Assembly (NCBI RefSeq): GCF_004768545.1
Contig: NZ_CP038636.1
Coordinates: 1,116,001-1,180,000, forward strand
Direction: 5' to 3'
Origin: Cupriavidus oxalaticus
Lineage (GTDB): Bacteria; Pseudomonadota; Gammaproteobacteria; Burkholderiales; Burkholderiaceae
Length of the DNA stretch: 64,000 nt
Shown here: in pieces, positions 9,178 through 16,787 of the stretch
How positions within the stretch are numbered: position 1 is the stretch's first letter
How the letters are laid out: every line of letters starts with the position of its first letter
Notes under the pieces: generated by a model
What the model saw: the letters and a program-made list of their open reading frames with translations, nothing else
What the model was told of the DNA's origin: nothing
The model's database searches: none
Made by a program: the position numbers and the translations under genes

Positions 9178-11217
9178 TTAGCAAGGCTCCAGAAACTGTT
9201 GCACTGGGTCACCGTCGATCGACGACGGCGCAAGACCTGACACCTTAACAATGCGCTGCCAGCGCTCTAGTTCAGTCTCCACCCGTCTTGCGAGCAGTTC
9301 AGGACCGCCCGGCTCGGGGGCTGCGCCGTAACTCTCGAAGCCCGCTTTGACCTCTGGATCCCGTAGGACTTCGGCCAAGGCGCCATTGAGCTGTTCCACC
9401 ATCGCGGCAGCGGTTCCCGCGGGGGCAAACAGACCATACCACTGAGTCAATTCCATGCCCCTAACGCCCAACTCCGCAAGCGTCGGTACTTCTGGCAGCA
9501 CTGGCAGGCGTTTTGGTCCGGCGACTGCCAGGGCTCGCAACTGACCGGCACCCACTGGCCGATATGCTGTCAGCAGGCTGGCGAACATAACCTGTGTCCG
9601 TCCGTCAATGGTCGACGCGATGGCTGGCGCAGCGCCTTCGAAGGTAGTACTGCGCATCGAAGTACCAGTGGCCAGTTGGAAAAGCTCTGCGGCAAAGTGT
9701 GGCGGTGTACCGTCCCCTGCGGACGCGTAGCGAAACCTTCCAGGCTCGCGCTTCATGTGGGCGACCAGCGTACCCAGATCAAGCGGCGTTTGCATTGGAT
9801 TCGCCACCAACAATATTGGGGACGATCCTATAAGCCCGACCGGAGAAAAAGAGGAAACCGGATCGTACCCGACGGGTTGCAGGGCCGGATTCATCGAATG
9901 AGTTCCAATATAGCCGAGCAAGAGCGTCTGACCATCGGGTTCTGCCCGCGCCACGAACTCGCAGGCAATGCCGCCGTTGGCACCGGGACGGTTATCGATG
10001 ATGACATCATGTCCCAGCAGTCGTCCAAGCCTGGGGCCAATAAGGTGCGCCACAAGATCGTTGCCACCCCCGGCACGGGTAGGTACGATGATCCGCAGTG
10101 AATGCCGAGACGATGCCTGCTTTACTCGGCTGCCTTCCGGCCGCGAGAAGACATAATCGGGCAGATGGAGCTGGCCTTCTATGATCTTGCGTGCCGTTCG
10201 AACGAGGGCCGCTCTTGTTACAGTAGCCGCAGCGCCCTCCCCCTCCAATTCCACCTCCACTTCGATCCGTCCCGCTGGGTGCAAGACGACAAGTGCGTGG
10301 CGGCCGGGCAATCGGGTCAATTGGCTAGCAACCGTCCCAGGTAACGCAAATGCGCTGGCAACGCCGATGGCGCCGGTGACGGCATGCGACGCATGACATT
10401 TGCGAGGCGTAAAGTAGCGCGACGTAATACTGTCCGGTGAATCGCCAGGGCTGACCAGGACTGGCTTTGGAATAACGCTGTCCGAGACATCGCCCAGGCC
10501 CATCAATTCCCCAGCCTGCAAGCGCAGCGCTTCCAGACGCGCAAGCAGTGTCGGGTCATTGTCGAGCGTGGCCGGCGCCTCGCGTCCACTGACACCGAGG
10601 TCGCGTGCCCGGACGAGCATCAATGGCATCGCCGCATCGATACAAGTCACTTCGACGCCGTCAATCAGATCAACGCGGTTGCCCGTCGGAAAGACCTTTC
10701 CGGTCACTGCGCCCCACGCATCGACGAAATCGAGCAGGATGGGTGAACCCGTCCCCGCAACGCCATCGATTCGAGTGTCGCCGTCATAGGTGACCCGACC
10801 GTCAGGCGTGCGGACCGTCACATCGATTCGTGACCCCGTATTGACGTTGTGAACGCGTACGCGGGTTGAGCCGAGTTGGGCGGCAACCAGTCCTTGCTCG
10901 ATCGCAAAGGGGGCGACTCCGGAAAGCATATTGCCGCAGTTCGGCCGGGTGTCCACCGAGGAGTTGCCCACTCCTACCTGTACGAACAGGTAGTCAAGGT
11001 CACAGCCGGGTTGCGTGGATCGCGAAACAATCGCCACCTTGCTGTTCAGCGTGCTACCGCCGCCCACCCCGTCCAGTTGAAGCGGGTCGGAGGCACCGAT
11101 GGCACCGATCAACGCCTGGTCACGAGCCTCTACGCTTTCCGGCAGCCACTCTCGCAGAAAGAACGGTCCACGCGAGGTGCCGGCTCGCATCAGCACGCAA
11201 GGAATCGTCTTGCTCAT
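9178..11217 (-). CDS. Fusion of a PrpF-like isomerase with a Bug-family solute-binding domain
   Basis: The 679-residue protein has two parts. Residues 1 to about 362 are a full PrpF/4-oxalomesaconate-tautomerase-like domain (diaminopimelate-epimerase fold). It has the paired cysteines Cys94 (RPNCGN) and Cys274 (PRKCHAS) and ends in the usual ARKIIEGQ helix. Residues about 373-665 are a Bug/TctC receptor (LRIIVPTRAGGGNDLVA, GANGGIACEFV, then WYGLFAPAGT). The linker at about 363-372 has no signal peptide, so the receptor half would stay in the cytoplasm unless the fusion is cleaved or is a product of deletion. It starts one base after the stop of the upstream Bug gene, so both are cotranscribed. 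Each half is well supported; the function of the fusion is unknown. Confidence 0.85.
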   Translation of the reverse strand: MSKTIPCVLMRAGTSRGPFFLREWLPESVEARDQALIGAIGASDPLQLDGVGGGSTLNSKVAIVSRSTQPGCDLDYLFVQVGVGNSSVDTRPNCGNMLSGVAPFAIEQGLVAAQLGSTRVRVHNVNTGSRIDVTVRTPDGRVTYDGDTRIDGVAGTGSPILLDFVDAWGAVTGKVFPTGNRVDLIDGVEVTCIDAAMPLMLVRARDLGVSGREAPATLDNDPTLLARLEALRLQAGELMGLGDVSDSVIPKPVLVSPGDSPDSITSRYFTPRKCHASHAVTGAIGVASAFALPGTVASQLTRLPGRHALVVLHPAGRIEVEVELEGEGAAATVTRAALVRTARKIIEGQLHLPDYVFSRPEGSRVKQASSRHSLRIIVPTRAGGGNDLVAHLIGPRLGRLLGHDVIIDNRPGANGGIACEFVARAEPDGQTLLLGYIGTHSMNPALQPVGYDPVSSFSPVGLIGSSPILLVANPMQTPLDLGTLVAHMKREPGRFRYASAGDGTPPHFAAELFQLATGTSMRSTTFEGAAPAIASTIDGRTQVMFASLLTAYRPVGAGQLRALAVAGPKRLPVLPEVPTLAELGVRGMELTQWYGLFAPAGTAAAMVEQLNGALAEVLRDPEVKAGFESYGAAPEPGGPELLARRVETELERWQRIVKVSGLAPSSIDGDPVQQFLEPC

Positions 11218-11218
11218 C

Positions 11219-12190
11219 TCAGTCCGCCTTCAGTTTTGCCGCCTGCACTACTTTCTTCCACTTGACCTGTTCCTCCTGAATAAATGTTCGCATCTGGGCC
11301 GTGGACATGGCCGTAACCTCTGCGCCTTGTCCCTCCAAACGCTGGACAACAGTCTTGTCCTTCAACGCCTGGTTTAATGCCTTGTTCAGTGCTTCTACAA
11401 CGGGTGCTGGCGTGTTCGCGGGTGCGAAGATGGCGTACCACTGGGAGACATCGACGTCATTGATCCCTTGTTCCTTCAGCGTGGGCAACTCTGGCATCAG
11501 CGAAGAGCGCTTGCTGCCTGCAATCCCGACCGCCTTCAGCTTGCCGTTCTTCAACTGGGGCAATGCGGTGAAAAGACTCGGAAACATCACTTGTGTCTGC
11601 CCGGCAACTGTGTCATTAATCGCCGGAGCTGATCCCTTATACGGCACATGAAGCATCTCGGTGCCGGTCGAGAGTTTGAACATTTCCGCGGCAAAATGCG
11701 GAGCGGTTCCATTGCCCGCCGAGGCGTAACTGATCTTTCCTGGCGTTGCTTTGAGTAGCGTCACGACTCCCTTGGCATCGTTGGCCTTCAGGTTCGGATT
11801 GACGACCATCACTATTGCCGAAGAACCAACCATGCCGACCGGTACAAAATCCTTAACGGGATCGTACCGAAGCTTCTGCAAAGCAGGATTCATGGCATGT
11901 GTCGCCACGTAGCCGAGTAGCAAGGTGTACCCGTCCGGTGGGGCACGCATGACAAACTCACTGGCAATCGCCCCGTTCGCCCCCGCTTTGTTGTCGACCA
12001 CGATTGTCTGCTTGAGGATCGTCGACATTGCTTGGCCAACTACCCGCGCCATGGCGTCATTAGCGCCTCCCGCTGCGGTGGGCACTACCAGCGAAATTCT
12101 CTTTTCAGGGAACGCCCCGAAGGAGCTGGCGCTCCCAAGTGCTGCCGCGATCGCAATGCTGCACAGCAAAAGTCGCTTGGATGATTGCAT
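11219..12190 (-). CDS. Bug-family (TctC-like) periplasmic solute-binding protein
   Basis: This 323-residue protein is of normal family length. It has a cleavable signal peptide (MQSSKRLLLCSIAIAAALGS, cleavage near SSFGA), then FPEKRISLVVPTAAGGANDAMAR, DNKAGANGAIASEFV and QWYAIFAPANTPAP, all typical of Bug receptors. Bug proteins bind small carboxylates in the periplasm and feed tripartite (TctAB) transporters or signalling systems. No tctAB genes are nearby. The gene heads an operon with the PrpF-Bug fusion and is divergent from a LysR gene, which probably controls it. Confidence 0.9.
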   Translation of the reverse strand: MQSSKRLLLCSIAIAAALGSASSFGAFPEKRISLVVPTAAGGANDAMARVVGQAMSTILKQTIVVDNKAGANGAIASEFVMRAPPDGYTLLLGYVATHAMNPALQKLRYDPVKDFVPVGMVGSSAIVMVVNPNLKANDAKGVVTLLKATPGKISYASAGNGTAPHFAAEMFKLSTGTEMLHVPYKGSAPAINDTVAGQTQVMFPSLFTALPQLKNGKLKAVGIAGSKRSSLMPELPTLKEQGINDVDVSQWYAIFAPANTPAPVVEALNKALNQALKDKTVVQRLEGQGAEVTAMSTAQMRTFIQEEQVKWKKVVQAAKLKAD

Positions 12191-12335: not shown

Positions 12336-13265
12336 ATGACCATCAACTTCAACCTCAATGATTTGCAGGCATTTCGTGCCGTTGCCGAGCTGAATAGCTT
12401 CCGCAAGGCGGCTAACTCCCTGAACGTCTCGCAGCCGGCCTTTAGCCGCCGCATAGACAAGCTTGAAGAGGCATTGGGGGTGCGCTTGCTCGACCGCACC
12501 ACCCGCCGGGTGAGCCTGACGACCGTCGGCCGGGATTTCGACCGTAAGGTAAAGGAGATACTTGACGAACTGGATCAGGCACTGCTCGGCATACGCGGAG
12601 TGACGACGACGCGGATGGGGGAAGTGACTATTGCTTGCGTACCGTCGACGGTCTATTACTTCTTGCCGCAAGTCATCTCGCGCTACCATGCGCAGTATCC
12701 GAAGATTCGGGTAAAGATTCTGGATGCCAGCGCGAACGAGGTGCTGTCAGCGGTGTCGCGCAGTGAAGCAGATTTCGGCATCGATTTCGTGGGAGGCCAA
12801 GAGCCGGACATTGAATTCAGGCCCTTGCTGGAAGAACGCTTCGTTGCGGCCTGTCGTCGCGATCATCCACTGGCGCAGCGACGGCAAGTGACCTGGGCAG
12901 ACCTCGCCGGCTACGACTACATTTCGGTCAGCAAAGCTTCCGGCAACCGGCTGCTCCTCGATCAGGCGCTATCCAACGTGTCAGGATTGCCGCAGAGTAT
13001 CTATGAGACACAGCACGTCACCACGACCTTGGGCCTGGTCGAAGCCGGCCTTGGCATCGCAGCGGTGCCATCGATCGCCATGCCAGGTCCAGACCATCCG
13101 CTTCTAGTTAGTGTTCCACTAACCGACCCGGTCGTGACGCGCAAAATTGGGTTAATACGCCGCAAGAGCCGATCCTTAACACCTGCCGCGCAGCAGCTCT
13201 ACGACTTCCTTTGCGAAACACGACCAAGACGTGGCGCGCCCGCCGGCAAACGGCGTGGCAAATAG
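12336..13265 (+). CDS. LysR family transcriptional regulator
   Basis: The protein is 309 residues. The N-terminal helix-turn-helix is clear (DLQAFRAVAELNSFRKAANS, then NVSQPAFSRRIDKLEEALG). The effector-binding domain follows from about residue 95. It is divergent from the Bug/PrpF-Bug operon, the usual arrangement for a LysR activator responding to the operon's substrate. Its 3' end faces the lyase-CoA-transferase-hydratase operon, which may belong to the same regulon. The C-terminus is Arg/Lys-rich. Confidence 0.9.
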   Translation: MTINFNLNDLQAFRAVAELNSFRKAANSLNVSQPAFSRRIDKLEEALGVRLLDRTTRRVSLTTVGRDFDRKVKEILDELDQALLGIRGVTTTRMGEVTIACVPSTVYYFLPQVISRYHAQYPKIRVKILDASANEVLSAVSRSEADFGIDFVGGQEPDIEFRPLLEERFVAACRRDHPLAQRRQVTWADLAGYDYISVSKASGNRLLLDQALSNVSGLPQSIYETQHVTTTLGLVEAGLGIAAVPSIAMPGPDHPLLVSVPLTDPVVTRKIGLIRRKSRSLTPAAQQLYDFLCETRPRRGAPAGKRRGK

Positions 13266-13319: not shown

Positions 13320-14666
13320 TTAGCGCCGGCTAGCCAGTACCCTGTCGACCATTACGCCGGCTTGGCCAACATTGTTGCGTGGATCGCACATGGCCTCGAG
13401 TTGTGCGCGTGACACGTGGCTGCTTACTTCCGGATGTGCCGCGAGGATGTCGATCAACGGTCGGTTGTTGGCAATGGCCTCGCGGCAAAGGTCATAGACC
13501 AGATCGTGCGCGTATTCGCGCCCAATATATGGTCCCAGGCCCATCATCACCGCCTCAGACATAACCAGCCCGTTTGTCATGTCGATATTCGCGCGCATGC
13601 GAGCCGCGTCCACCTCCAAGCCCTGCAACACGAACTTCGCCTGCTTCAGGGCACCGGAAATCAGGCAAAAGATCTCCGGTAGGGATACCCATTCGATCTC
13701 CCACGGGCCTGTTGAACGCTCGTGGTCAGCCACCATCGCATCCATCAGGGCCGCCGCGTGCTGCCGTGCAACCGAGATGTTGGCGTGGATGTACAGGCAC
13801 GAAATCGGGTTGCGCTTCTGCGGCATGGTTGATGAAGAGCCGCGCCCCGGCGCAAAGGGTTCGAACACCTCGGCAACTTCAGTCTGCATCATGAGCTTCA
13901 CGTCCATGGCGATCTTGCCGAGCGAGCCGCCGACGAGTCCGAGAAACGCGCCCACTTCGGCAATCGTATCGCGCACCGTGTGCCAGGAGATCAGTGGCTG
14001 CGCCAGCCCAAGTTCCTTCATCAACGCAGCCTGGGTTTCCATGGCTCCCGTCTGCAACGAGGAAAGCGTACCGGATGCGCCGCCGAACTCACCCATCAGC
14101 ACTCGCGGCTTCAACTGCTGCAGCCGCTCGCGGTGGCGCTCGATGCCGGCAAGGATGCTGGCCATCTTGTAGCCGAACGTAATAGGGGTGGCTTGCTGCA
14201 GGTTGGACCGACCGATCACCGGCGTGTCGCGGTACTGCTTCGCCAGCGTTGCAAGCGCGTCAGCGATGTCCTCGAGGTCCGACTCGATCAGTGCCAGGCC
14301 CTCGCGCATCTGCAACACCGCCGCTGTGTCGGTAATGTCCTGGGTGGTGGCGCCCCAATGGCAGAATTCGCCAAGCCCATCTCGGCAGTTCGCGTTGATC
14401 TGGTTGACCACCGCGATAATCGGATATCCGATCTGTTCGGTCTTTGCCTTGAGCTTAACCCAGTCAATTTGGGAAAGTTCGCAATTCTTGACGATCTCGT
14501 CGGCCGCTTCCTGCGGGATGATGCCAAGCTCACCTTGCACTTTTGCCAACGCGCGCTCGATGTCCAGGTATTTAGCCGTGCGGTTTTCATCGGACCACAC
14601 TTCGCGCATGCGCGCGTCGCTAAACATGTCGCCAAAAATGCGGGAATCAATGATGGTGGAAGCCAT
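13320..14666 (-). CDS. Fumarase/aspartase-superfamily lyase (adenylosuccinate lyase / carboxymuconate cycloisomerase-like)
   Basis: The 448-residue protein carries the superfamily signature GSSSTMPQKRNP (residues about 276-287). Its other conserved regions include GATTQDITDTA and the helix-rich central domain. The closest named families by eye are adenylosuccinate lyase and 3-carboxy-cis,cis-muconate cycloisomerase. It is not the housekeeping purB by context, because it sits in an operon with a CoA-transferase and a mesaconyl-CoA-hydratase-like gene. It is expected to eliminate fumarate or a related acid from, or lactonise, a C-N or C-O substituted dicarboxylate. The exact substrate is unknown. 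Confidence 0.8.
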   Translation of the reverse strand: MASTIIDSRIFGDMFSDARMREVWSDENRTAKYLDIERALAKVQGELGIIPQEAADEIVKNCELSQIDWVKLKAKTEQIGYPIIAVVNQINANCRDGLGEFCHWGATTQDITDTAAVLQMREGLALIESDLEDIADALATLAKQYRDTPVIGRSNLQQATPITFGYKMASILAGIERHRERLQQLKPRVLMGEFGGASGTLSSLQTGAMETQAALMKELGLAQPLISWHTVRDTIAEVGAFLGLVGGSLGKIAMDVKLMMQTEVAEVFEPFAPGRGSSSTMPQKRNPISCLYIHANISVARQHAAALMDAMVADHERSTGPWEIEWVSLPEIFCLISGALKQAKFVLQGLEVDAARMRANIDMTNGLVMSEAVMMGLGPYIGREYAHDLVYDLCREAIANNRPLIDILAAHPEVSSHVSRAQLEAMCDPRNNVGQAGVMVDRVLASRR

Positions 14667-14713: not shown

Positions 14714-15904
14714 TTACACAACGCTATCAGCGCGCATCATGGCGATTTCGTCGGAGGCATATCCAAGCTCCGCGAGAATTGTGTCGGTGTGCTGACCAAG
14801 TGCCGGTATCGGATCCATACGCGGCCCTTCGTTCCAGGTCCCCGGGGGCAAGAGAGCGGGCAGCATGCCCTTGGGCGAGTCGACTTCAGTCCAGCGGCCG
14901 CGCGCCTTGAGTTGAGCATGCTCCCACACCCCCTGCATGTCATTGACGCTGGCATTAGCGATCTGGGCTAACTCCAGTCGCTGCACCACTTGAGCACCGC
15001 TTAGAGGCAAAAAGGCATCTACGATGATCTGCCTCAGTGCAGTGCGCTCGGCCACGCGTCTGGAGTTTGAGCTAAAGCGGGGATCTTCGATCAGTTCGGG
15101 CCGCTGGAGCACCGTGTTGCAGAAGCTTGCCCATTCCCGCTCGTTCTGCAACCCCAACATTACTGTCGCCCCATCGCCAGCCGGAAACGGTCCATAGGGG
15201 TAGATTGTGGCGTGGCTTGCGCCCGTGCGCTGCGGCGGCTGTGCCCCGTCAAACGCGTAGTAGAGAGGGTAACTATTCCATTCCGCCAGCGCCTCTAGCA
15301 TGGAGATGTCAATACGTTGCCCTCGGCCCGTCTGATTGCGTTGTAACAGAGCGGCCAGAATGTTTGTGTAGGCATACATGCCGGCGGCAATATCGGCAAT
15401 GGAAGGCCCAGCCTTGCAAGGCACCTCAGGCGTCCCCGTCACGGACAGAAATCCGGCTTCGCTCTGAACGAGAAGGTCATAGGCCTTCTTGTCGCGGTAT
15501 GGTCCGGGATTCTCCGGGTTGTCGCCATAGCCCGAAATATCACACACAATGATTTGGGGCTTGACGGCGGAAAGCGTTTCGTAGCCGAGACCAAGCCGTG
15601 CTGCGGCGCCTGGTGCGAGGTTCTGAACCACCACGTCCGCCTTTTCCTCAATCAAACGCTGTAATACGCCAGCCGCGGCCGGGTGCTTGACATCGAGCGT
15701 CAGGCTTTCCTTCGAGCGGTTTGTCCAGACGAAATGCGAGGCCAGGCCACGGACCCGCTCATCATAACCACGGGCGAAATCGCCGACCCCAGGCCGCTCG
15801 ATCTTAATAACTCGTGCACCCAGATCGGCAAGCTGGCGCGTGGCAAAAGGCGCCGCAATCGCGTGTTCAAATGTGACAACCGTGATGTCTTTGAGGGGTT
15901 GCAT
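14714..15904 (-). CDS. Class III CoA-transferase (CaiB/BaiF family)
   Basis: At 396 residues it has normal family length. The N-terminal TFEHAIAAPFATRQLADLGA and IKIERPGVGDFAR segments are typical. Asp143 in KKAYDLLVQSEAG is the expected catalytic aspartate that forms the acyl anhydride with the CoA donor. These enzymes move CoA from succinyl-CoA or another donor to an organic acid. Together with the downstream lyase and the upstream hydratase-like gene, the operon looks built to activate and process a branched or unsaturated dicarboxylate such as mesaconate or itaconate. That substrate assignment is inference. Confidence 0.87.
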   Translation of the reverse strand: MQPLKDITVVTFEHAIAAPFATRQLADLGARVIKIERPGVGDFARGYDERVRGLASHFVWTNRSKESLTLDVKHPAAAGVLQRLIEEKADVVVQNLAPGAAARLGLGYETLSAVKPQIIVCDISGYGDNPENPGPYRDKKAYDLLVQSEAGFLSVTGTPEVPCKAGPSIADIAAGMYAYTNILAALLQRNQTGRGQRIDISMLEALAEWNSYPLYYAFDGAQPPQRTGASHATIYPYGPFPAGDGATVMLGLQNEREWASFCNTVLQRPELIEDPRFSSNSRRVAERTALRQIIVDAFLPLSGAQVVQRLELAQIANASVNDMQGVWEHAQLKARGRWTEVDSPKGMLPALLPPGTWNEGPRMDPIPALGQHTDTILAELGYASDEIAMMRADSVV

Positions 15905-15926: not shown

Positions 15927-16787
15927 TCAGCGAAGGACTGCCGTGGCGTCCATGGTCAGCCAGCCCTCGTGGTCCGATGCCCACAAGCGAACTGTTTTGC
16001 CGTCAGACTGCGGTTGACCGCTGACCCGGAAGGGATGCAGGTCGAAGGTCGGGCGCACCGCACGGAATCGAAAGCTGGCGACCTCGGCCTGGGGCAATTC
16101 ACGCTGCAGCAGATCCAGTAGCAACGTAGCGATCAGCGGGCCGTGGACAATCAAGCCGGGGTAGCCTTCGACCTCTGTCACGTAGCGGCGGTCATAGTGG
16201 ATGCGATGCCCATTGAAAGTCAGGGCCGAATAGCGGAACAGCAACACGTCGTCCGGAACAATTTGGCGCTGCCAAGCCGCTTCCGCGGGCGCCGCCTGGG
16301 GCATGACAGGCGCCTCGCCAGACTGCTGTGCCTCTCGGTAAACGATGTCGTGAAACTCCACTAACGCCGGTTCCGCAGTACCGATCACGCGGATCTCGTG
16401 ACGCACTTTTACAAATACTAACTTCCCGGTCCGCCCCTCCTTGCTTGTAACATCGTCGATGATGGAGGTGCGCTGGATCTTGTCGCCCACCCGAAGTGGA
16501 TGGCGAAACTCGAATTGGCCGCCTGCCCACATGCGGCGGGGCAATGGCACAGGGGGTAGAAATCCGCCGCGCTTGGCATGGCCATCGTGCCCAATTTCGC
16601 TTTGACGATGCATGGGTAGGAAATACAGCCAATGCCACAGTGGCGGCAATGGAGTGCCTGCTGTCTGCGCTGCTGCGGGGTAATCCAGCGTCGCACGCAG
16701 CGCTGCGATCGGCGCGGCAGTGACTGTGTCCTCCCACTGCTCGCTGCGTCCGATCCACGTCCTGGGGTCAATTGCCTGTTCGTCCAC
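15927..16787 (-). CDS. MaoC-like / HTD2-type dehydratase, mesaconyl-C4-CoA hydratase-like
   Basis: The 286-residue double hot-dog protein has an N-terminal FAS1-like half with PLPRRMWAGGQFEFRHPLRVGD. The C-terminal half has RYSALTFNGHRIHYD and VEGYPGLIVHGPL, the hydratase-2 type active site. This layout is shared by mesaconyl-C4-CoA hydratase and the fungal HTD2 dehydratase. The gene is first in a minus-strand operon with the CoA-transferase (23-bp spacing) and lyase. A hydration of an enoyl-CoA dicarboxylate to a citramalyl-CoA-like product is the best guess. Confidence 0.8.
   Translation of the reverse strand: MDEQAIDPRTWIGRSEQWEDTVTAAPIAALRATLDYPAAAQTAGTPLPPLWHWLYFLPMHRQSEIGHDGHAKRGGFLPPVPLPRRMWAGGQFEFRHPLRVGDKIQRTSIIDDVTSKEGRTGKLVFVKVRHEIRVIGTAEPALVEFHDIVYREAQQSGEAPVMPQAAPAEAAWQRQIVPDDVLLFRYSALTFNGHRIHYDRRYVTEVEGYPGLIVHGPLIATLLLDLLQRELPQAEVASFRFRAVRPTFDLHPFRVSGQPQSDGKTVRLWASDHEGWLTMDATAVLR

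Follow-up and report, generated by a model that had tools for sequence, protein, structure and literature searches.

Solute-binding proteins are regarded as extracytoplasmic parts. Some genomes carry hundreds of genes for those of the Bug (TctC) type, a Rhodoplanes as many as 434 (PMC5994714), and many of these genes have no obvious membrane partner (PMC5812351), as given in the accessible portions of both papers. A second family of concern here is the PrpF superfamily of isomerases. In the accessible text of PMC4720413, Ustilago Adi1, a PrpF-family enzyme, interconverts cis- and trans-aconitate, Tad1 then makes itaconate, and aconitase and fumarase are inhibited by trans-aconitate; that of PMC11495376 presents Bacillus TarA and TbrA as PrpF-family aconitate isomerases. 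Itaconate production or trans-aconitate use are the roles given to these three enzymes in the available text, which mentions no binding domain in its descriptions of Adi1 (443 aa) and TarA (376 aa). Here we analyse a 64,000-nucleotide stretch of the Cupriavidus oxalaticus genome (contig NZ_CP038636.1, positions 1,116,001 to 1,180,000; the window), in which a PrpF-family isomerase is joined in one reading frame to a Bug domain. Judged by sequence, the fusion is conserved, both of its folds are complete, the catalytic lysine and cysteine and the carboxylate loop are retained, and no export signal is recognisable. We propose, at slightly short of an even chance, that the product is a cytoplasmic bifunctional protein, an aconitate Delta-isomerase (PrpF/4-oxalomesaconate-tautomerase family) with a tethered tricarboxylate-binding Bug domain. 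The fused gene and its upstream neighbour are laid out as follows.

9178..11217, minus strand: fused open reading frame (ORF), 679 aa, putative aconitate-type isomerase (PrpF family) plus signal-less Bug/TctC domain
10147..11217, minus strand: isomerase half, residues 1–357; Lys60 and Cys94 match LigU K66 and C100
10102..10146, minus strand: polar linker, residues 358–372; in signal-bearing relatives the bug ribosome site, start codon and signal peptide lie here
9226..10101, minus strand: Bug (TctC) domain, residues 373–664, from Pfam, alignment and structure model
10057..10083, minus strand: first carboxylate loop PTRAGGGND, residues 379–387, kept; motif from the accessible part of PMC8556258
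9631..9645, minus strand: closure loop TFEGA, residues 525–529, PYKGS in exported Bugs, from alignment
9178..9225, minus strand: C-terminal tail, residues 665–679 plus stop, predicted disordered and mostly without counterpart in the subfamily's exported Bugs
11219..12190, minus strand: free exported Bug paralogue, 46% to the fused half; signal peptide at about 12113–12190, by eye

The fused ORF comprises 679 codons with an ATG start and is free of internal stops. Pfam finds both families in this single frame, PrpF at residues 4–353 (372.6 bits) and TctC (PF03401) at 397–662 (163.6 bits against a cut-off of 27), the latter covering profile positions 9–274 of 274, which agrees with the claim of an earlier sequence-only reading that both halves are complete. 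The linker, which that reading put at about ten residues, measures about 12–15. The upstream Bug (323 aa) ends one base from the fused ORF and starts with an ordinary-looking signal peptide, whereas the fused half has no hydrophobic signal in the junction and thus lacks the export signal of its family; signal-peptide calls here rest on hydrophobicity, as the best 11-residue mean across the junction. Pfam and junction hydrophobicity together bear out the fusion as first described, in frame, signal-less in its Bug half and beside an exported Bug. In the window genome (7.97 Mb; 150 of 168 candidates scored) there are 149 matches to the fusion, mostly Bug domains at 24–46% identity. One PrpF paralogue covers residues 5–376; the earliest of the other matches begins at residue 268 and has two internal stops, and no second PrpF–Bug fusion was seen among the scored candidates.

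A database search of the kind proposed earlier returns full-length fusions for 120 of 120 homologues among the matches listed (of 1774), 665–689 residues long and 69–98% identical, under the names Cupriavidus, Variovorax, Ramlibacter, Hydrogenophaga, Pseudorhodoferax, Ottowia and others. In named genomes, 20 of 22 loci are fused at full length and in frame; one (L029) ends at a contig edge and one (L026) is frameshifted in the Bug half. Within the window's genus, 9/9 genomes that match at 89% or better have the junction in frame; a frameshift in genome G286 lies past the junction, within the Bug half. The in-frame fusion is seen again in other genera and families, among records of Variovorax, Ramlibacter, Caenimonas, Rhodoferax, Ottowia and Polaromonas. 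These in-frame relatives effectively rule out the earlier suspicion of an assembly or sequencing error, or of a deletion confined to one strain, for which we found no supporting evidence. Of a proposed origin by deletion between adjacent genes, the joining of prpF and bug still fits the data, now as the property of a conserved family. The isomerase half alone, used as query, has matches, fused or not, in 61/398 genomes of the window's family (E 1e-90); nine of these reach at least 89%, and each of the nine belongs to the window's genus. At E 1e-125 it has matches in 5/399 genomes of the order, in 63/399 from the family that includes Variovorax sp. OV329, and in 4/74, 1/4 and 47/268 in further genome sets. 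The fusion itself is already visible to databases through machine annotation, with machine-made names such as 'PrpF/...receptor s' showing this domain pair; a literature search, with most subscription papers outside its reach, returned no description of such a fusion or of cytoplasmic Bug domains.

The relatives fall into three states. After removal of the partial L029 and 39 duplicate loci, 124 loci comprise 48 in which prpF and bug are separate genes, 28 fusions whose linker contains a signal and 48 signal-less fusions, the window's included, so that relatives do not always carry two genes. Loci with a PrpF at or below 54% (L043–L060) or without PrpF (L003–L008) were left unclassified, and matches not taken as loci number 16/47 in the 268-genome set, 2/63 in the Variovorax-family set and 35/65 in the window-family set. 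A same-strand Bug match follows the PrpF match by 54–332 bases in 45/48 separate loci; none was found in L130 (a 7.4 kb contig that ends inside the signal region), L134 or L140, which are counted among the 48. L026 is counted as signal-less despite its frameshift. Absent from the Bug counts below are these three loci, nine separate rows whose Bug start was missed by motif, L026, L007 and the free Bug of L038, which is truncated.

The signal-bearing fusions have the same two halves in frame as the window fusion, and retain in the linker what it does not, namely GGAGAC followed by an ATG or GTG start codon and a signal peptide, in that order and all inside the ORF (28/28). Because bug has its own GGAGAC and start codon it can start alone, although no stop of prpF precedes it, and one frame may yield both the fusion and a free exported Bug. 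Such in-frame nested bug genes occur, for example, in L149–L159, L176–L179 and L182–L188, with widely varying linker lengths. The two fused classes do not overlap in linker length (35–54 residues in the 28 signal-bearing and 12–24 in 47 signal-less rows), and junction hydrophobicity is bimodal (1.70 to 2.57 versus -1.9 to 0.92). A start codon with a Shine–Dalgarno-like (SD-like) tetramer is found at 3/48 signal-less junctions, each a GTG within the first strand, and the frame is open in 47/48 signal-less rows.

Two questions about the order of events can be addressed with these loci: (i) was the signal lost in the joining itself and (ii) was it lost once. For the first, the export signal has been lost from the window fusion as originally claimed, but it need not have vanished at the joining of prpF and bug, because 28 related loci are fused and yet keep the signal and their own ribosome site. 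For the second, we built PrpF trees of 124 rows and, more carefully, of 68 rows (without 18 near copies and with only 10 separate rows), both rooted on chosen separate rows. The fused loci form one group (95/90) with most separate rows outside; L129, L131 and L130 fall among signal-bearing rows and L140 among signal-less ones. The first fork of this group has signal-bearing rows on either side (a 25-row side at 85/89, with L177 and L188 opposite), and the signal-bearing fusion is therefore the likely older state. The main signal-less clade has support of 100/99, whereas L030 pairs with signal-bearing L188 (100/97) and L160 with L153 (99/92), pairings that imply at least three losses of the signal by the PrpF gene. 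A single signal-less clade is rejected by the PrpF data (approximately unbiased test, p-AU 1e-67, 68 rows), and we disfavour a single loss, though the Bug tree supports it by uniting all signal-less domains as a single clade, at 99 and, in a subset of 51 rows with 16/47 signal-less Bugs, at 96/99.

The Bug data are less strict than that clade suggests. The subset does not reject L030 with L188 (p 0.31) or L160 with L153 and L158 (p 0.158), groups that were named after viewing the PrpF tree. By identity the nearest Bug of L030, a metagenome assembly, is that of L188 (75%, against 65% for the best signal-less one), and the nearest to L160, at 67%, are those of two other signal-bearing rows. Of 183 columns that are conserved among signal-bearing Bugs, eight have changed in L030, L160 and the main clade alike, where 0.52 are expected under independence; among the eight, column 491 is a gap in L160 and column 406 is an I/V site also variable in exported Bugs. 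The overlap between L030 and L160 covers 14 columns versus 5.0 expected, which indicates that some sites are simply free to change. Among 378 signal-bearing pairs the largest triple overlap is 1, a weak control in that the columns were chosen as conserved in those rows. For the conflict between the two trees, convergence after signal loss seems to us likelier than recombination.

A further Bug of the same subfamily, at least 52% identical to the window's free Bug, accompanies 24/27 signal-less fusions (not L030, L147 or L174), 0/23 signal-bearing fusions and 0/19 separate loci, counting loci with 5 kb of upstream and 4 kb of downstream sequence. The Fisher p of 1e-15 overstates the evidence, since the rows are related. 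The idea that the exported paralogue freed the fused copy for a new role thus has an association behind it (24/27 against 0/42) and nothing firmer. L030 and L160, the independent-looking losses, have no second Bug in their available flanks, that of L160 being too short for inclusion among the 27 loci, and this counts against a strict rule. In the Bug tree, 32 free Bugs occupy four places: a 24-row clade with the window's, L173/L148/L108/L109 within the signal-bearing group, L175/L180/L181, and L024. These positions suggest repeated recruitment of an exported Bug beside signal-less fusions. Recent tandem duplication of the fused Bug as the source of the upstream one is unsupported: free (24 rows) and fused (47 rows) Bugs are separate clades, each at 99, and the free-Bug clade branches outside the signal-bearing plus signal-less group on forks of 87–89. 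The upstream Bug is indeed one base away, but does not look like a fresh sister copy.

The fused domain shares with Bug/TctC proteins (TphC, TBP, MatC, BugD and AdpC) the fold, the carboxylate loop and the GxGTxPH and QWY segments, and differs from them in being joined to an enzyme, in having no recognisable signal, in its added C-terminal tail and in the replacement of VPY(K/R)G. Unchanged in 47/47 signal-less domains are P379, T380, G383, G384, N386 and D387 of the carboxylate loop, as well as T439, H440, G501, G503, P506, M544, F545, S547, Q592, W593 and Y594. The full first-loop motif of Bug proteins is P-F-x-A-G-G-x-x-D in the accessible part of PMC8556258; PTRAGGGND contains its core, P-x-x-A-G-G-x-x-D, with T at the F position as in the subfamily's exported rows. 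The closure loop is where the classes part. Pro525 is present in 96/96 exported Bugs and 0/47 signal-less domains, and Lys or Arg at 527 in 96/96 and 3/47, respectively; L030 and L160 keep the basic residue and have lost the proline alone. The window fusion has TTFEG in place of VPY(K/R)G, and no signal-less row (0/47) keeps both the proline and the basic residue. That VPY(K/R)G defines Bugs is our own reading of the 96 exported rows and five paralogues, four of which have K/R.

At position 381, 89 exported Bugs have Ala and seven have Ser, the signal-less domains divide between Ser (25 rows) and Arg (22 rows), and residue 527 is acidic in 22/22 rows with Arg381. The two look like a swapped charge pair that, the rows being related, may have arisen as one ancestral change. 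In the accessible text on TphC (PMC8556258), the matching loops meet upon closure, with S31 hydrogen-bonded to K177; we equate K177 with residue 527 through alignment with the related TBP (VPYKG versus TFEGA) and S31 with residue 381 through the motif. Note that the TBP mutant K184D (8hkb), with VPYDG where 8hka has VPYKG, was solved with terephthalate (TPA) bound; our literature search found no paper on this mutant.

The fused Bug half is under purifying selection. Its ratio of nonsynonymous to synonymous substitution (dN/dS) is 0.10–0.12, compared with 0.04–0.07 for the free Bug and 0.05–0.065 for the isomerase half (three genus sets of 6, 36 and 3 pairs). Values among signal-bearing rows (0.26 for PrpF and 0.23 for Bug) were set aside, as the pairs are distant and dS looked unreliable.

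To the question of structure, we modelled the fusion from an alignment that included separate PrpF and Bug rows; this model replaced a poor first one built from 70 near relatives (mean predicted local distance difference test score (pLDDT) 66.5, predicted template modelling score (pTM) 0.50). Mean pLDDT is 86.3, both halves being well modelled apart from residues 42–56; values are below 50 there, in the linker (360–371) and in the tail (665–679), and pTM is 0.55. Foldseek matches the first half to YbhH and LigU, the LigU(K66M) and LigU(C100S) entries among them, and to PrpF solved with trans-aconitate (2pw0). The Bug half matches malate-bound MatC, closed TphC and TPA-bound TBP with target-normalised TM scores of 0.91–0.93, and open TphC and apo TBP with lower scores of 0.79–0.83.

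The isomerase half, described earlier as PrpF-like, does belong to that family but is closer to 4-oxalomesaconate tautomerase and E. coli YbhH than to methylaconitate PrpF. It scores 487.7 bits with the NCBIfam 4-oxalomesaconate tautomerase model (NF033377, cut-off 440) and 188.9 bits with methylaconitate PrpF (TIGR02334), under the cut-off of 440.55 and hence outside that family, and reaches 401 bits against YbhH and 312 bits against LigU. Besides the profile score, the likeness to this group lies in K60 and C94, which are present in 124/124 rows and align with the catalytic residues K66 and C100 of LigU. Solved YbhH/LigU-type chains (350–365 residues) are without a Bug domain, unlike the window fusion. 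The genes beyond the free Bug suggest aconitate/itaconate rather than 4-oxalomesaconate as the substrate, and are listed below.

12336..13265, plus strand: divergent LysR regulator, near prpF in many relatives
13320..14666, minus strand: lyase nearest Ustilago trans-aconitate decarboxylase Tad1 among solved proteins
14714..15904, minus strand: CoA-transferase family III (CaiB type)
15927..16787, minus strand: hydratase nearest itaconyl-CoA hydratase among solved proteins

The lyase scores 548 bits with Tad1, 467 with an unassigned fumarate lyase and 386 with carboxymuconate cycloisomerase; the hydratase scores 241 bits with itaconyl-CoA hydratase. Among loci of at least 12 kb, the 25 with signal-bearing fusions have the lyase (counted at 60% or more) in 22 cases, the CoA-transferase in 21 and the hydratase in 21; for the 31 with signal-less fusions the numbers are 25, 26 and 25. 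None of five pathway genes is found in 19 separate loci of at least 12 kb, many of which span 14 kb as against 18 kb or more for the others; there the prpF/bug pair may serve simple trans-aconitate use. Variovorax locus L016 adds a RipC/CitE-like lyase (147 bits, below the cut-off of 375) and DctA (577 bits, above 513). The Tad1-like lyase, the hydratase and the CoA-transferase, taken with the PrpF-family aconitate isomerases of Ustilago and Bacillus, lead us to predict an operon that converts aconitate via itaconate to pyruvate and acetyl-CoA. Like Adi1, TarA and TbrA, the isomerase half belongs to the PrpF superfamily, and as Adi1 partners Tad1, so the window operon encodes a Tad1 relative, which places the gene beside trans-aconitate metabolism as expected of an aconitate Delta-isomerase; for these enzymes the likeness is one of family and, for Adi1, of neighbours.

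In the mechanism that we propose, the free Bug would gather tricarboxylate in the periplasm, and the cluster would break down trans- or cis-aconitate through the isomerase, the Tad1-like decarboxylase, the CoA-transferase, the itaconyl-CoA hydratase and, in relatives, a CitE/RipC-like lyase. In the cytoplasm, the fused Bug domain would bind the tricarboxylate that the free Bug gathers, or a related one, and would either hold toxic trans-aconitate beside the isomerase (trap and feed) or signal its level to the enzyme (allostery). The tether is flexible, the carboxylate pocket is kept, the closure loop has changed and the isomerase would act on a toxic tricarboxylate, which together suggest cytoplasmic capture of substrate or product near the active site. 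A bolder version is unlikely to hold in full: that a Bug protein became a cytoplasmic enzyme domain on three or more occasions, as the PrpF tree has it, that VPY(K/R)G is a transport-only element and that the domain is a tethered trap feeding the isomerase toxic trans-aconitate. The route would then be repeatable, from operon neighbours to an in-frame nested gene to loss of the ribosome site and signal, and the same sites (Ala381 and Pro525) would have been altered each time, marking the closure loop as needed for transport only.

Several results weigh against the bifunctional protein. The pTM of 0.55 leaves domain orientation unfixed; the top NCBIfam model for the isomerase half is 4-oxalomesaconate tautomerase, with the substrate taken from neighbours; and just one NCBIfam profile exceeds its cut-off for the lyase, pcaB (3-carboxy-cis,cis-muconate cycloisomerase), with 356.3 versus 355.75. 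The window has no citE or dctA match at the thresholds used. The dN of the fused Bug half is about 2–3 times that of the free Bug. In L026 (Cupriavidus sp. LEh25) and L037 the Bug half is frameshifted; the fused Bug half of L147 (genome G402) is strongly diverged, on a branch of 1.79; and L140 (G914), whose prpF lies inside the signal-less clade, shows no Bug in the 1.35 kb that remain of its contig downstream. L140 and L147 are possible cases of loss or decay of the domain, and with the frameshifts they imply that the Bug half is perhaps dispensable and not always needed.

These last observations, with the faster evolution of the fused half and the loss of the closure-loop proline and basic residue, favour reading the Bug half as a vestige, a non-binding tail that aids folding, solubility or dosage of the isomerase once an exported Bug stands elsewhere in the cluster. 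We consider this somewhat unlikely, given its low dN/dS, the pocket residues invariant in 47/47 domains, the frame open in all but one of the signal-less rows and the acidic residue that accompanies Arg381 in every case, though kinship may make this last one change. Should the domain still bind, it might act as an allosteric sensor instead of a trap, closing on a tricarboxylate to activate or shut down the isomerase. The accessible text on TphC (PMC8556258) describes Bug domains as pincers closing around carboxylates, and the modelled half fits closed or ligand-bound TphC, MatC and TBP better than open or apo forms; a low-confidence linker with no fixed orientation suits a tether better than tight coupling, and pure allostery seems to us unlikely. 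It is very improbable that the fusion is still a transport part, its Bug half periplasmic by an unrecognised route or a hidden internal start. All signal-bearing relatives do keep an internal ribosome site and start, but the few SD-like starts at signal-less junctions, being GTG codons within the first strand, would give no signal, and the VPY(K/R)G of exported Bugs is not retained.

The three locus states form a natural series with a living example of each step, and suggest a path from solute-binding protein to cytoplasmic enzyme part. The residue changes in the fused domain may separate the transport job from ligand binding, which bears on the role of VPY(K/R)G, and the cluster points to a predicted bacterial aconitate-to-itaconate catabolic operon.

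Some minor observations concern broken or partial forms of the gene. In L037 the isomerase half is intact and the frameshift lies within the Bug half, whether natural or an assembly error. Eight Bug-half proteins (P0249, P0252, P0255, P0256, P0258, P0260, P0274 and P0332) are exactly 285 aa long and begin at the same internal Met, without the first strand and the carboxylate loop, as a split gene or a gene-calling effect would produce. One of the eight comes from a 3.95 Mb contig named Ottowia pentelensis. Among 29 genomes searched as the genus of Ottowia thiooxydans (E 1e-90), the match is in O. thiooxydans only, where the frame is fused.

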